Assembly (NCBI GenBank): GCA_021813905.1
Contig: JAKAJH010000016.1
Span: 1 to 55,562 of the forward strand
Source: Bacteroidota bacterium
Lineage (GTDB): Bacteria > Bacteroidota > Ignavibacteria > UBA10030
Direction: 5' to 3'
DNA: 55,562 nucleotides
The notes under the pieces are model-generated. The model worked only from the letters and a program-made list of their open reading frames with translations. It did no database searches and was not told where the DNA came from. Both the position numbers and the translations under genes were made by a program. Of the stretch, positions 41,360-46,011 are shown piece after piece; position 1 is the stretch's first letter, and every line of letters starts with the position of its first letter.

Positions 41360-41388
41360 TTGGAATTCAGGGCATCGATCCGTATATT
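41360..41388 (+). promoter_or_regulatory. Sigma70-like promoter for menG
   Basis: Plus strand TTGGAA (41360-41365), 17-bp spacer, TATATT (41383-41388). Expected start near 41395, about 13 bases before the ATG, which makes for a very short leader. Confidence 0.65.
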
Positions 41389-41407
41389 TCTTTCGTACGA
41401 TTACAGA

Positions 41408-42151
41408 ATGAAACGGATGATCTCCCCGGCGACACCATCGTCAGCACACGGGCGGCGAGTGTACAGGCGTGAGTATGTTGAACGCCTGTTCGATTCGATC
41501 GCCCCGAAATATGACGTCCTGAATCATCTCCTCAGCTTCGGCCGTGACATTCTCTGGCGGAAGCGGGTCGTGTGGGCGCTTCGAGCCATCGCTCCGCAAC
41601 GTTTGCTGGATGTGGCCACCGGCACGGGCGACCTGGCGATCGCCGCCGCGACGCTTCGCCCCCGGAGCATAGTTGGGATCGACGTCTCCGCCGGCATGTT
41701 GAACCTCGCGACCGACAAGATCCGCCGGCAAGGGCTGGACAAGACGATCTCGGTCCAGCGGGCCGACGCGGAGCACCTCCCTTTCCCGGACGCTTCCTTC
41801 GACGCTGTAACGGTGGCCTTCGGGGTTCGCAACTTCGCCGACTTGAACGGCGGACTGCGCGAGATGGCACGGGTGCTGCGACGGGGCGGCGTGGCTGCCA
41901 TCCTCGAATTCTCGAAGCCCGCCGGATCGTTCATCAGGGCACTGTTCGCGGCGTACTCCCGTTCTGTCATTCCATCGCTGGGTGGGGCGATTTCGGGGAA
42001 TCCCGAAGCATACAAGTATCTGCCGGCCACCGTCGCGGAGTTCCCGTCGGGCGATGCGTTTGCCCGTATCCTGCAGGACGCGGGATTCGAGACGGTCAGC
42101 GTTCACGAACAGACGTTCGGGATCGCCACACTCTATCTCGCATCACGGTAG
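41408..42151 (+). CDS. menG: Demethylmenaquinone methyltransferase (UbiE/MenG)
   Basis: 247 residues. SAM-dependent C-methylation of demethylmenaquinone to menaquinone, the last step of the pathway. Motifs: RLFDSIAPKYDVLNHLLSFG at the start of the family core, LLDVATGTGDLAIAA (SAM motif I), GIDVSAGMLNLA (motif post I), DAEHLPFPDASFDAVTVAFGVRN (motif II) and REMARVLRRGGVAAILEFSKP. C-terminal SGNPEAYKYLPATVAEFPSGD is the second signature. The start at 41408 follows the promoter by about 20 bases; an ATG three codons further is possible. The only menaquinone gene in the window; the Fe-S oxidoreductase at 8896-10884 would use the product. Confidence 0.95.
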   Translation: MKRMISPATPSSAHGRRVYRREYVERLFDSIAPKYDVLNHLLSFGRDILWRKRVVWALRAIAPQRLLDVATGTGDLAIAAATLRPRSIVGIDVSAGMLNLATDKIRRQGLDKTISVQRADAEHLPFPDASFDAVTVAFGVRNFADLNGGLREMARVLRRGGVAAILEFSKPAGSFIRALFAAYSRSVIPSLGGAISGNPEAYKYLPATVAEFPSGDAFARILQDAGFETVSVHEQTFGIATLYLASR

Positions 42152-42178: not shown

Positions 42179-43102
42179 ATGATCGGACTGTATAAAATAT
42201 TCGACAGCCACATCCACTTCTACTCCAGCACGTTCTTCCGGTATCTGATCAAGCAGAAGCCGAACCGGGCGGACCTGAGCACGGAGCTGCGGAATCTGGC
42301 CGCGAAAGGGCACCTCGAGATCCCCGGCGAAGATCCCGTTCAGCTCGCGAAGCGTTGGATCGAGACGATGGACAAGTGGAAGTTGGAGCGCGCGACGCTG
42401 TTCGGCAGCATTCCCGGCGACGAGGAGTCGGTGGTCAAGGCGGTCCAGGCGTACCCGCAGCGCTTCGCGGGATTATTCACGGTCGATCCGAATTCCAATG
42501 TGCTGATGGAGAACGCGGAAAAGCGGCTGCGGCAGGACAAGTTGCGCGGCATCGTGCTGTATCCGTCCCTGTATCAGATCAGCGTCGGAGACGAATGGCT
42601 TACGCCTCTGTACACGCTCGTGCAGGAGTGCAGAGGCATCGTGGTGACCCAGTTCGGACGCCTGATCATGCGCCCGCGGGATTTTGCCGGCATTCCGACC
42701 GTCATCAACGAGGAATTTGCCGATCCGCGCGCTCTTGTTCCCGTGGCCAAGCGTTTTCCGAAGATCCGGTTCATCATTCCGAATTTCGGCGCCGGCCGCT
42801 TCGAGGAGGTGTTGGAAGTCGGACGGGCCTGTCCGAACGTCTTTGTGGATACGGCGGGATCGAATTCATGGATGGCGGATCATCCGTCCAAACCGGATCT
42901 GCGCAAGGTGTTCCAGCGAGCGCTCGACGCATTCGGATCGGGCCGTATCCTCTTCGGCTCCGATTCCGGTTTGCTGCCGCGCGGCTACCGGTATGACATC
43001 GTGGACAATCAGCTGAAGCTGGTGCAGGAAATGCGCATTCCGATGCAGGACATCAAGAAGATTTTCTACGAAAATCTTGCGGGATTACTGGACTCGGCAT
43101 GA
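42179..43102 (+). CDS. Amidohydrolase-fold protein with incomplete metal site
   Basis: 307 residues. Starts MIGLYKIFDSHIHFYS with the HxH pair (His11, His13), and has ILFGSDSGLLPRGYR (Asp262) near the C-terminus, so it is a metal-dependent-hydrolase TIM barrel (COG2159 type). The two central ligands usually found as His are different: strand 5 reads VVTQFGRL (Gln158 where TH.G is common) and strand 6 reads IIPNFGAGRFE (Asn202 where IxxHxG is common). It may bind one metal, or be a non-catalytic or altered-activity member. It follows menG by 27 bp. Neither neighbour suggests a substrate. Confidence 0.8.
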   Translation: MIGLYKIFDSHIHFYSSTFFRYLIKQKPNRADLSTELRNLAAKGHLEIPGEDPVQLAKRWIETMDKWKLERATLFGSIPGDEESVVKAVQAYPQRFAGLFTVDPNSNVLMENAEKRLRQDKLRGIVLYPSLYQISVGDEWLTPLYTLVQECRGIVVTQFGRLIMRPRDFAGIPTVINEEFADPRALVPVAKRFPKIRFIIPNFGAGRFEEVLEVGRACPNVFVDTAGSNSWMADHPSKPDLRKVFQRALDAFGSGRILFGSDSGLLPRGYRYDIVDNQLKLVQEMRIPMQDIKKIFYENLAGLLDSA

Positions 43103-43156: not shown

Positions 43157-44014
43157 TTACAGATTGATCTTGTATCCGACCATCTTGAGTTCTTTAATGA
43201 GACTCAGGCTGGCCTCCTCGAGTTTCACAACGATGGGTTTGACCGTTACGCCGGGGACGTTCTTCGGGAAATTTACGTCTGTCATGTGAAGTACGCAGAC
43301 GCGTCCGCTGCCGAGCTTGCCCATGAAGTGTCCGATCTCGAACATCGCGTACGCGAGGTCGTCGGAATTGATGACGAAGAATGCGTAGCGCGCGTTGGAT
43401 TCCGTCGACAGACCGTCCAACGCAAGCATCTGTCCCCGTTGACGGTCGATGGGCACTTCACGAATGCCGAGCTCGCCGAGAAAATCCGCCAGCTGCAAGC
43501 GGAGCGGATCGCTCTTCTCGCCGATGACGTAGACGCAATCGGCACAGGCGGTGGGTGCCGCCGCGGCAGGTTCAGGCGTCGGCTTCGCCGTTGCCGCAGA
43601 TTTCGGCGGCGGTTTGAGCACCCGCCCTCCCCCTGTGTCCGACGCCGTCGGTTGCTGTGAAGAAACGACCGGGGCAGGTTCCGTCGCCGCCCCGAGTTCC
43701 GGCGACGCCTTCAGCTTCTCGAAGAGTTCACGCGTCGCACCGAGGATCAGCAGCGCGGAGGACTGGAAGAAATATCCGCCGTTCTGATCGGCGAGGATCC
43801 TGTTCTTGTACGGGAAACCGATGGGTCCGACCTGTTCCATCGTCTCGAGACACGCCTTGCGCCAGTCGAGATACTTGTTTTGCAGTCGCGCATTGTACCC
43901 CGAGAAATCAAATCCTCCCAGCGGAGCCAGTTGCGTGCCCGTGGCGACAAGTCCCTCCAGTTTTTTGATCAGCTGCTCTGGCATTCCGTTTCCGTTCTGC
44001 ATCGGCGGGAGCAT
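43157..44014 (-). CDS. TIR-like nucleotide-binding protein (PF10137-like)
   Basis: 285 residues. Residues 1-100 are an N-terminal helical part (LIKKLEGLVATGTQLA...GYNARLQNKYLDWRKACLETME) with no family I can name; 105-158 is a Pro/Ala/Thr-rich linker; 159-285 looks like the CAP12/PF10137 'TIR-like nucleotide-binding' domain: VYVIGEKSDPLRLQLADFLG, AFFVINSDDLAYAMFEIGHF (Glu226 at the place of the conserved FELG Glu), MGKLGSGRVCVLHMTDVNFP and, at the end, SLIKELKMVGYKINL. TIR domains of this class can cleave NAD+ in anti-phage defence. Catalysis here is inference. It starts 68 bp after the metG stop, same strand. Confidence 0.72.
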   Translation of the reverse strand: MLPPMQNGNGMPEQLIKKLEGLVATGTQLAPLGGFDFSGYNARLQNKYLDWRKACLETMEQVGPIGFPYKNRILADQNGGYFFQSSALLILGATRELFEKLKASPELGAATEPAPVVSSQQPTASDTGGGRVLKPPPKSAATAKPTPEPAAAAPTACADCVYVIGEKSDPLRLQLADFLGELGIREVPIDRQRGQMLALDGLSTESNARYAFFVINSDDLAYAMFEIGHFMGKLGSGRVCVLHMTDVNFPKNVPGVTVKPIVVKLEEASLSLIKELKMVGYKINL

Positions 44015-44082: not shown

Positions 44083-46011
44083 CTACTTGACGGTCGCCCC
44101 CGGATTCACATCAGACGCCGGCGTCAGGATCGCCAGACGTCCCGTTTCGTCGCTTGCCGCCAGCAGCATTCCGTTCGATTCCTGGCCCATGAGTTTCGCC
44201 GGCTGCAGGTTCGCCACGACGACGATGTTTCGACCGACAAGCGTTTCCGGCGCGTAGTGTTGTGCGATGCCGGCCAGGATCTGCCTCCGTTCCGAACCGA
44301 TTTCGATCTGCAGCTTCAGCAGCTTCTCCGATTTCGGCACTCGTTCGGCGGACGCGACGCGCGCAACACGCAATTCCACCTTCCGAAAATCATCGATGGA
44401 GATTCGCGGCGTCTCAGGCGTCTGCTTCGGTTGCGTCTCCGGCTGGGGAGCAGGCTTCCCCGCAGCCTTCGGGAACAGGATTGGGGCGCTCCTTGTCGGC
44501 GTGCCCGGGATGAGTCCGCCCCACTCCGTCAGATGCTTCACCGGCGGGGCCCCGGCAGGGAGTCCGAGCGTTGAGCGCAACTCTTCCATCTTCGCGGGCA
44601 TGACCGGATGAAGCAGTCCGCTGACGATGCGCAGCGATTCGGCGGCGCAGTACATCACGGTCTGCAGACGTTGGGTGTCGCCATTCTTGGCGAGCGCCCA
44701 CGGCTGGTTCTTTTCGATGTACCGGTTCGCCTCACGCACCGCCCCGACAAGTGTCGCCAGGCCTTTGTCGATACGCATTTCCTCGACGGCAGTGACCATG
44801 CCTTCCGCAGCCGCGAGGACGGCGTTCCGCAAGAGCAGATCCGTTTCCTGCATCTCTCCCGGTTGCGGGATGGTCTTGCCAAGGTGCGCTTCGATCATTT
44901 TGGCCACCCGGCTGAGCAGATTGCCGAGATCGTTGGCGAGGTCCGAATTGTACCGCGACTCGTAGCTCTCCGGATTGAAACTGGCATCCTGTCCCAGCAC
45001 CATCTCGGCCATCAGAAAGTAGCGGAATGCATCCACGCCGAAGCGGTCGATCATGTCGAGCGGACTGACCACGTTTCCGAGTGACTTGCTCATCTTGGTC
45101 TGCCCGCTCAGCCACCAGCCGTGCGCGAAGATCGTATCCGGCATGGTCACACCCGCGGCTTTCAGCATGATCGGCCAGTACACCGTATGCGTGGTGAGGA
45201 TGTCCTTGCCGATGAGGTGGTACGTCGCCGGCCATCGACGCGCGAACCGCGTTTGATCCCGACGGTACCCTACCGCGCTGATGTAATTGACCAACGCATC
45301 GAACCAGACATACGTCACAAAATCGCGGTCGAACGGGAGTTCGATGCCCCAAGCCAGCCGGCTTTTGGGGCGGGAGATGCACAGGTCCTGCAGCGGCTTG
45401 CGGAGGAAGCCCAGCGTTTCATTGCGACGAAAATCGGGCTGAATGAACAGCGGATGCTCCTCGATGTAGGAAATCAGCCATTCCTGGTACTTGCTCATCC
45501 GAAAGAAATAGTTCGCTTCGCGTACCTTTTCCACCGGCCGTCCGCACTCGGGACAATTCCCGCCCGAGAGGTCCTTTTCGGTGTAGAAGCGCTCGTCCGC
45601 CACGCAATACCAGCCGTCATACTCGGCCCGGTAGATCTCTCCCCGGTCAAAGAGGTCCTGAAGGATCTCCTGCACCACCACTGCGTGCCGGGGCTCTGTC
45701 GTGCGGATGAAATCGTCGTTGGTGATCCCGAGGCGCTTCCAGAGATCCTGAAACCGGACGACGGTGGTGTCGGCCTGTTGCTGTGGCGTCATGCCGGCGG
45801 TCTCGGCCGCCCGCTGAACCTTCTGACCGTGCTCATCGGTCCCGGTCAGGAACCAGGTGTCGGCACCGAACAGCCGGTGAAATCGTGCCAGCACGTCGGC
45901 GAGGATCGTCGTGTACGCATGGCCGATGTGCGGCTTGTCGTTGACATAATAGATCGGTGTGGTGATGTAGAATTTATTTCTGGTCATGCGGTTCGGGAGG
46001 TCGCTCCCCAT
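44083..46011 (-). CDS. metG: Methionyl-tRNA synthetase with C-terminal tRNA-binding domain
   Basis: 642 residues. Class I synthetase charging tRNA-Met with methionine. HIGH motif in HIGHAYTT, KMSKS in QTKMSKSLGNVV, the zinc-knuckle half GNCPECGRPVEKVREANYFF and FTYVWFDALVNYISA are in place. The C-terminal 110 residues are an EMAP-type tRNA-binding OB fold (VELRVARVASAERVPKSEKLL, VVANLQPAKLMGQESNGMLLA), a common appended dimerisation/tRNA-binding domain. The start at 46011 overlaps the holB stop as TGATG. An internal ATG at 45987 matches the usual family N-terminus (TRNKFYITTPIYYVN) and is an equally possible start. Confidence 0.96.
   Translation of the reverse strand: MGSDLPNRMTRNKFYITTPIYYVNDKPHIGHAYTTILADVLARFHRLFGADTWFLTGTDEHGQKVQRAAETAGMTPQQQADTTVVRFQDLWKRLGITNDDFIRTTEPRHAVVVQEILQDLFDRGEIYRAEYDGWYCVADERFYTEKDLSGGNCPECGRPVEKVREANYFFRMSKYQEWLISYIEEHPLFIQPDFRRNETLGFLRKPLQDLCISRPKSRLAWGIELPFDRDFVTYVWFDALVNYISAVGYRRDQTRFARRWPATYHLIGKDILTTHTVYWPIMLKAAGVTMPDTIFAHGWWLSGQTKMSKSLGNVVSPLDMIDRFGVDAFRYFLMAEMVLGQDASFNPESYESRYNSDLANDLGNLLSRVAKMIEAHLGKTIPQPGEMQETDLLLRNAVLAAAEGMVTAVEEMRIDKGLATLVGAVREANRYIEKNQPWALAKNGDTQRLQTVMYCAAESLRIVSGLLHPVMPAKMEELRSTLGLPAGAPPVKHLTEWGGLIPGTPTRSAPILFPKAAGKPAPQPETQPKQTPETPRISIDDFRKVELRVARVASAERVPKSEKLLKLQIEIGSERRQILAGIAQHYAPETLVGRNIVVVANLQPAKLMGQESNGMLLAASDETGRLAILTPASDVNPGATVK

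Follow-up and report, generated by a model that had tools for sequence, protein, structure and literature searches.

A gene on the minus strand of the 55,562-nucleotide stretch of Bacteroidota DNA analyzed here (the window, meaning this entire stretch) encodes a protein whose last ~125 residues belong to the PF10137 family of TIR-like domains by profile, profile-profile, and fold comparison, and this gene is inherited vertically as part of the core genome of its lineage and is not a patchy defence gene. The best explanation we can offer, to which we give an even chance of being correct, is that a defence-type PF10137 TIR was captured into a housekeeping operon and domesticated to a core sensor or scaffold. 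In bacteria, a TIR domain is taken as a marker of defence, and PADLOC returns candidate-defence matches for this gene. Here, the domain resides in a fixed, housekeeping-like gene and its NAD+ pocket is eroded; annotation that relies on the domain alone is therefore misleading.

The gene corresponds to the longest open reading frame at positions 43157 to 44014, which opens with ATG and specifies 285 aa; the plus strand of this interval is interrupted by a stop. As a previous reading based on the sequence alone had proposed, it is co-directional with metG (positions 44083 to 46011, minus strand), from which it is separated by 68 bp when measured from the first ATG. The 28 aligned relatives start at or adjoining Met11 of the window protein, one of them carrying six extra residues. 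Because nearly all relatives begin at the equivalent of Met11, the true start is probably this codon at position 43984, as judged from the 29-sequence alignment, which would yield a protein of 275 aa and a gap to metG of 98 bp. Numbered from the first ATG, the product comprises an N-terminal four-helix domain (residues 11–106; positions 43697 to 43984), a disordered Pro/Ala-rich linker with a conserved RVLKPPPK motif in the alignment (residues 107–156; positions 43547 to 43696), and the TIR-like domain (residues 157–285; positions 43160 to 43546), all encoded on the minus strand. In an AlphaFold2 model built from the 29-sequence alignment, residues 157–285 form a confident TIR-like domain, with pLDDT values above 90 across most of its length, whereas residues 117–155 are disordered (pLDDT < 50), which agrees with the linker described in the sequence-only reading.

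That reading had also assigned the C-terminal part of the protein to a PF10137-type TIR domain, and this assignment holds. The PF10137 profile, which represents CAP12 and Pycsar TIR domains, covers residues 162–259 with a score of 33–34 bits against a Pfam gathering cut-off of 24.7 (E = 7e-8), and matches 28 of the 29 lineage members at E ≤ 1. The expected structural resemblance to CAP12-type TIR domains was recovered, in that the closest solved structure to the TIR part is a TIR-STING protein (9lmr; Z = 12.0, 2.7 Å over 118 residues), with another, 7un8, at Z = 10.9. This comparison is not specific, however, as CheY-like and other Rossmann-like receiver domains tie with TIR-STING, and therefore the fold alone would not decide the family. 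Membership is settled instead by profile-profile comparison with canonical PF10137/PDC-S35 domains (E = 7e-25, probability 99.6). PADLOC's PDC-S35 profile, which describes a candidate defence family of single-gene PF10137 TIR proteins, matches all 29 lineage members, with E values of 3e-14 for the window protein and 4e-25 for the best relative. Weak matches are also seen to the PycTIR profile for the window protein and to a nucleoside deoxyribosyltransferase family in eight members.

The NAD+ pocket of SfSTING is composed of F6, W33, F37, L47, S10, R78, N80, and the catalytic E84, and is entered by D110 from the dimer mate (PMC9402430). By alignment and by their spacing from E84, R78 and N80 would correspond to the RARQN motif of PF10137, and D110 to its PSD motif. 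In the window protein, Glu226 (codon at positions 43337 to 43339, minus strand) lies within FEIGHFMGKLG and corresponds in the alignment to the catalytic Glu of PF10137 NADases. Its conservation, noted from the window alone, extends to 28 of the 29 members, the exception being an intact open reading frame (L063) with Ala at this position. The RARQ segment is deleted in every one of the 29 members, in which the following N is mostly replaced by Tyr; the PSD Asp of the DD-loop (D110 in SfSTING) is likewise absent from all 29, and the first strand has an altered HG as well. Among canonical sequences, a comparison set of only 22, R and N are each kept in at least 21 and the PSD Asp in 20. Helix αC around Glu226, through which SfSTING dimerizes, is highly conserved across members, so the domain resembles a dimerizing TIR that lacks the known substrate clamp. 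Since RARQ and the PSD Asp are missing throughout the lineage family, NAD+ degradation cannot be assumed, and NADase activity of this protein seems doubtful.

Several observations nevertheless favor an active enzyme of the NADase or cADPR type with a rearranged pocket, which would be a resident of the genome, passed on vertically, and would act in abortive infection or stress when triggered by its N-terminal domain. The retention of Glu226 is greater than a dead pocket requires, and two near-invariant new residues in the BB-loop region, Arg191 and Gly194, could form a different active site; both points count against our best explanation. A TIR-STING protein heads the solved structures, albeit tied with receivers, and the PDC-S35 and PycTIR profiles match. 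Against these stand the loss of RARQ and the PSD Asp from all members, the existence of one intact member without the Glu, the slow evolution of what is a core gene within a metabolic operon, and a neighborhood of ten genes without a partner defence gene. On balance, we regard such an effector as unlikely.

Comparison with known systems sharpens this contrast. Like the window protein, PDC-S35 proteins are ~260–290 aa in length and carry a C-terminal TIR domain that includes the last helix, but unlike the lineage members they keep the HG[HR]D, RARQN, and PSD motifs, and they are patchy in distribution or located on plasmids. CAP12/TIR-STING, the CBASS effector exemplified by SfSTING, shares with the window protein the TIR fold and the αC Glu. 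The window protein differs in having neither a STING domain nor a CD-NTase, in the C-terminal position of its TIR domain, and in the missing RxN and Asp, and it scores only 17 bits against the NCBIfam Cap12 models, for which the cut-off is 450. The Pycsar effector PycTIR also has a PF10137 TIR, whereas the window protein bears a four-helix N-terminal domain and has no cyclase gene among its ten neighbors. A search of these ten genes against PADLOC-DB revealed no CD-NTase, cyclase, SAVED, or STING gene, in accord with the initial impression that no partner defence gene is present.

The helical N-terminal region that the sequence-only reading could not place comprises ~95 residues in four helices and has no recognizable relative. 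Modeled alone, it forms a four-helix bundle composed of helices only (pLDDT 89.7, pTM 0.83). Fold searches returned generic four-helix bundles only (best Foldseek E value 0.57), a VIA fold search gave a best Z of 8.9, which does not exceed the noise level given for helical bundles, and a sequence profile search of the PDB produced a single match at E = 0.15. Among 395 genomes of the phylum, the domain was not found outside two families. Homology to the N-termini of PDC-S35 proteins, which are diverse among themselves, was unsupported by hhalign (profile-profile probability < 3); one second-family member (L062) matches the PDC-S35 profile over its full length. Within the family, mean identity is highest for the N-terminal domain (0.67, compared with 0.62 for the TIR domain and 0.33 for the linker), and the alignment reveals invariant GG...SG(Y/F)NA, WRK, and F-x-Q motifs. 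Because of this conservation and these motifs, we suspect a binding surface, and the domain is likely to be the sensor or partner-binding part of the protein.

The distribution of the gene is that of a core component. A search of 61 genomes detected the protein in 31 of the 32 genomes of the window's family, the sole exception being a genome of only 55% completeness. A second family has it in at least 10 genomes, most of those sampled; in the four other sampled families of the order, no full-length homolog was found. Across the class (294 genomes), full-length copies of the protein are confined to these two families, and matching public records are titled Ignavibacteria/Ignavibacteriales and Bacteroidota metagenome-assembled genomes (MAGs). 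The gene is single copy, and occupies one conserved locus in the window's family. Canonical PDC-S35 relatives, by contrast, occur sporadically across the phylum, and 1147 plasmid records match a canonical query, whereas the window protein matches plasmids by its C-terminal domain only, at 25–28% identity in the best matches. No relative of the window protein was detected in viral contigs and phage records. In a tree of TIR domains, the 29 members form a single clade with a support of 0.94 and a long stem. Mean identity of the protein (0.58–0.60) exceeds that of HolB, UbiE, and TatD for the same genome pairs, and dN/dS between two relatives (G026 and G028) is about 0.12 (dN 0.083, dS 0.67); the gene is under purifying selection. 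It is split or frameshifted in two MAGs (G016 and G023), by assembly error or decay. These data do not support a defence reading. That a core gene may nonetheless serve defence counts against our best explanation.

In relatives such as L041, the gene occupies a defined position in a futalosine-type menaquinone operon, with the order metG, ubiA/mqnP, ubiX, ubiD, an mqnE/mqnA fusion, the TIR-like gene, and mqnC, faced by an amidohydrolase gene, mqnD, and ubiE. Here, MqnC and MqnE were named by NCBIfam models and MqnA and MqnD by PF02621; the remaining names were read from the sequence. The mqnEA–TIR-like–mqnC order recurs in the second family (L062). In families without the TIR-like gene, mqnEA and mqnC are mostly direct neighbors, and the gaps that do occur hold vapC-like, relE-like, and DUF559-like reading frames, as read from the sequence; the gaps of sister families contained no hidden TIR-like genes. 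Since this slot holds such accessory reading frames, it accepts captured genes; a single capture probably brought in the TIR-like gene.

In five genomes (the window genome, G012, G015, G023, and G024), mqnC is absent and PF02621 is represented by a remote paralog alone. Replacement of the futalosine pathway by MenD was rejected for these genomes, in which no MenD scored above the cut-off. In the window genome, G012, G015, and G023, the TIR-like gene lies about 70–115 bp from metG. Intermediate stages are visible in G028, in which mqnC is reduced to its second half and interrupted by a frame break next to an intact TIR-like gene, and in G026, where mqnC is broken and mqnEA has shrunk to an 81-residue remnant. 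The adjacency to metG, which had been taken to hint at stress-linked expression, is instead the scar of a lost menaquinone operon, because the ubiA-ubiX-ubiD-mqnEA block that separates both genes in relatives is lost in the window. The window metG (PRK12267-type) is only ~31% identical to the metG found in the same place in relatives, which is of another MetRS type; this suggests that metG may have been replaced in situ by a foreign copy. In G028, another UbiA-family prenyltransferase gene, MenA-like in sequence (L043:8527–9420), lies just upstream of the TIR-like gene. By coordinates, the same holds for G024 and G026, and mqn genes are lost or broken in all three genomes.

The association with the menaquinone operon could signify a regulator or sensor of quinone, respiratory, or NAD(H) balance that was produced alongside the enzymes of the pathway and retained for a broader function once the pathway had been lost. 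The very close spacing to mqn genes in relatives is consistent with such a function, as is the adjoining presence of ubiE and a strongly conserved amidohydrolase gene in several mqn-less genomes. In the second family, moreover, two genomes without mqnC (G040 and G053) also lack the TIR-like gene. Operon membership may, on the other hand, reflect merely a captured promoter, and we hold this function to be improbable. In the window, a ubiE/menG-type methyltransferase gene (positions 41360 to 42151, plus strand) is retained at the locus despite the missing mqn genes. Next to it is the PF04909 amidohydrolase gene (positions 42179 to 43102, plus strand), which is convergent with the TIR-like gene. 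The amidohydrolase is 68–77% identical across the family, more conserved than its neighbors; its gene is found beside mqnD and ubiE in relatives, and is still beside ubiE in mqn-less genomes.

Least plausible, and in our estimation very improbable, is that the protein fills the aminofutalosine nucleosidase (MqnB) step, a reading made attractive by operon position and rejected on distribution. In the pathway encoded by the operon, this is the point at which MqnB acts as an N-glycosidase, an activity that TIR-like domains share. The gene is flanked by mqnE/A and mqnC in 20 family genomes in which a single contig carries both neighbors, and also in five genomes of the second family; the weak deoxyribosyltransferase matches point the same way, as does the failure to recognize any MTAN/MqnB-type PF01048 protein in the main classes typed. 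MqnB, however, has the PF01048 fold and a non-matching distribution: the TIR-like gene is present without mqnC and MenD in the window genome, G012, G015, and G024, persists beside mqnC remnants in G026 and G028, and is missing from four sister families that have the full mqn set and the same PF01048 pattern. Genomes of the order carry mqnA, mqnC, mqnD, and mqnE, and their typed PF01048 proteins are purine nucleoside phosphorylases; a few genomes encode a third, apparently secreted, MTAN-like protein (L153). Among the papers searched, none linked futalosine with a TIR domain or with Ignavibacteria, and none named PDC-S35.

The TIR-like gene is intact and selected where mqn genes have decayed, and therefore its product is not merely a menaquinone enzyme; nor does it act solely in menaquinone synthesis, because the gene outlives that pathway. 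Under the domestication proposal, a PF10137 TIR of plasmid-borne or defence type, with PDC-S35 as its nearest kin, would have entered the observed position, with mqnE/A on one side and mqnC on the other, in an ancestor shared by the two Ignavibacteria families that carry it, and would have settled there as the single-copy core gene now maintained by purifying selection. The conserved four-helix N-terminal domain would have been gained or kept. The alignment shows the TIR domain to have lost the CC-loop/RARQ segment and PSD Asp and to have retained the dimer-forming αC with its Glu. The N-terminal bundle might bind a partner or ligand, with the TIR-like domain dimerizing via αC as a sensor or scaffold and a nucleotide possibly still bound around Glu226. 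The role would then be a constitutive cell function rather than NAD+-depleting phage defence.

A precedent exists in Dictyostelium, whose TirB, TirC, and TirD are PF10137 TIR proteins that the host has adopted and inherits vertically; TirB and TirD are non-toxic in E. coli, and the action of TirD in yeast is independent of its putative catalytic Glu (PMC13142454). These proteins differ in being eukaryotic and in having other N-terminal parts, and TirC is a potent NADase (PMC13142454). With slightly less than even confidence, we extend our proposal to a bacterial counterpart of eukaryotic TIR domestication, in which an immune-type TIR, joined to a lineage-specific helical receptor domain, became a core non-immune sensor, scaffold, or other-nucleotide enzyme that was first anchored in the menaquinone operon and then became independent of it. 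The defence/NADase interpretation is weakened, and the non-defence alternative already raised from the sequence is favored, being better supported by the core distribution and the eroded pocket. If true, domestication would show the taming of an immune TIR protein by its host genome, and natural variants, including the Glu-to-Ala form, could separate structural from catalytic TIR residues. The latter variant is a 343-aa reading frame (L063:9500–10528) in which the linker is longer and repetitive.
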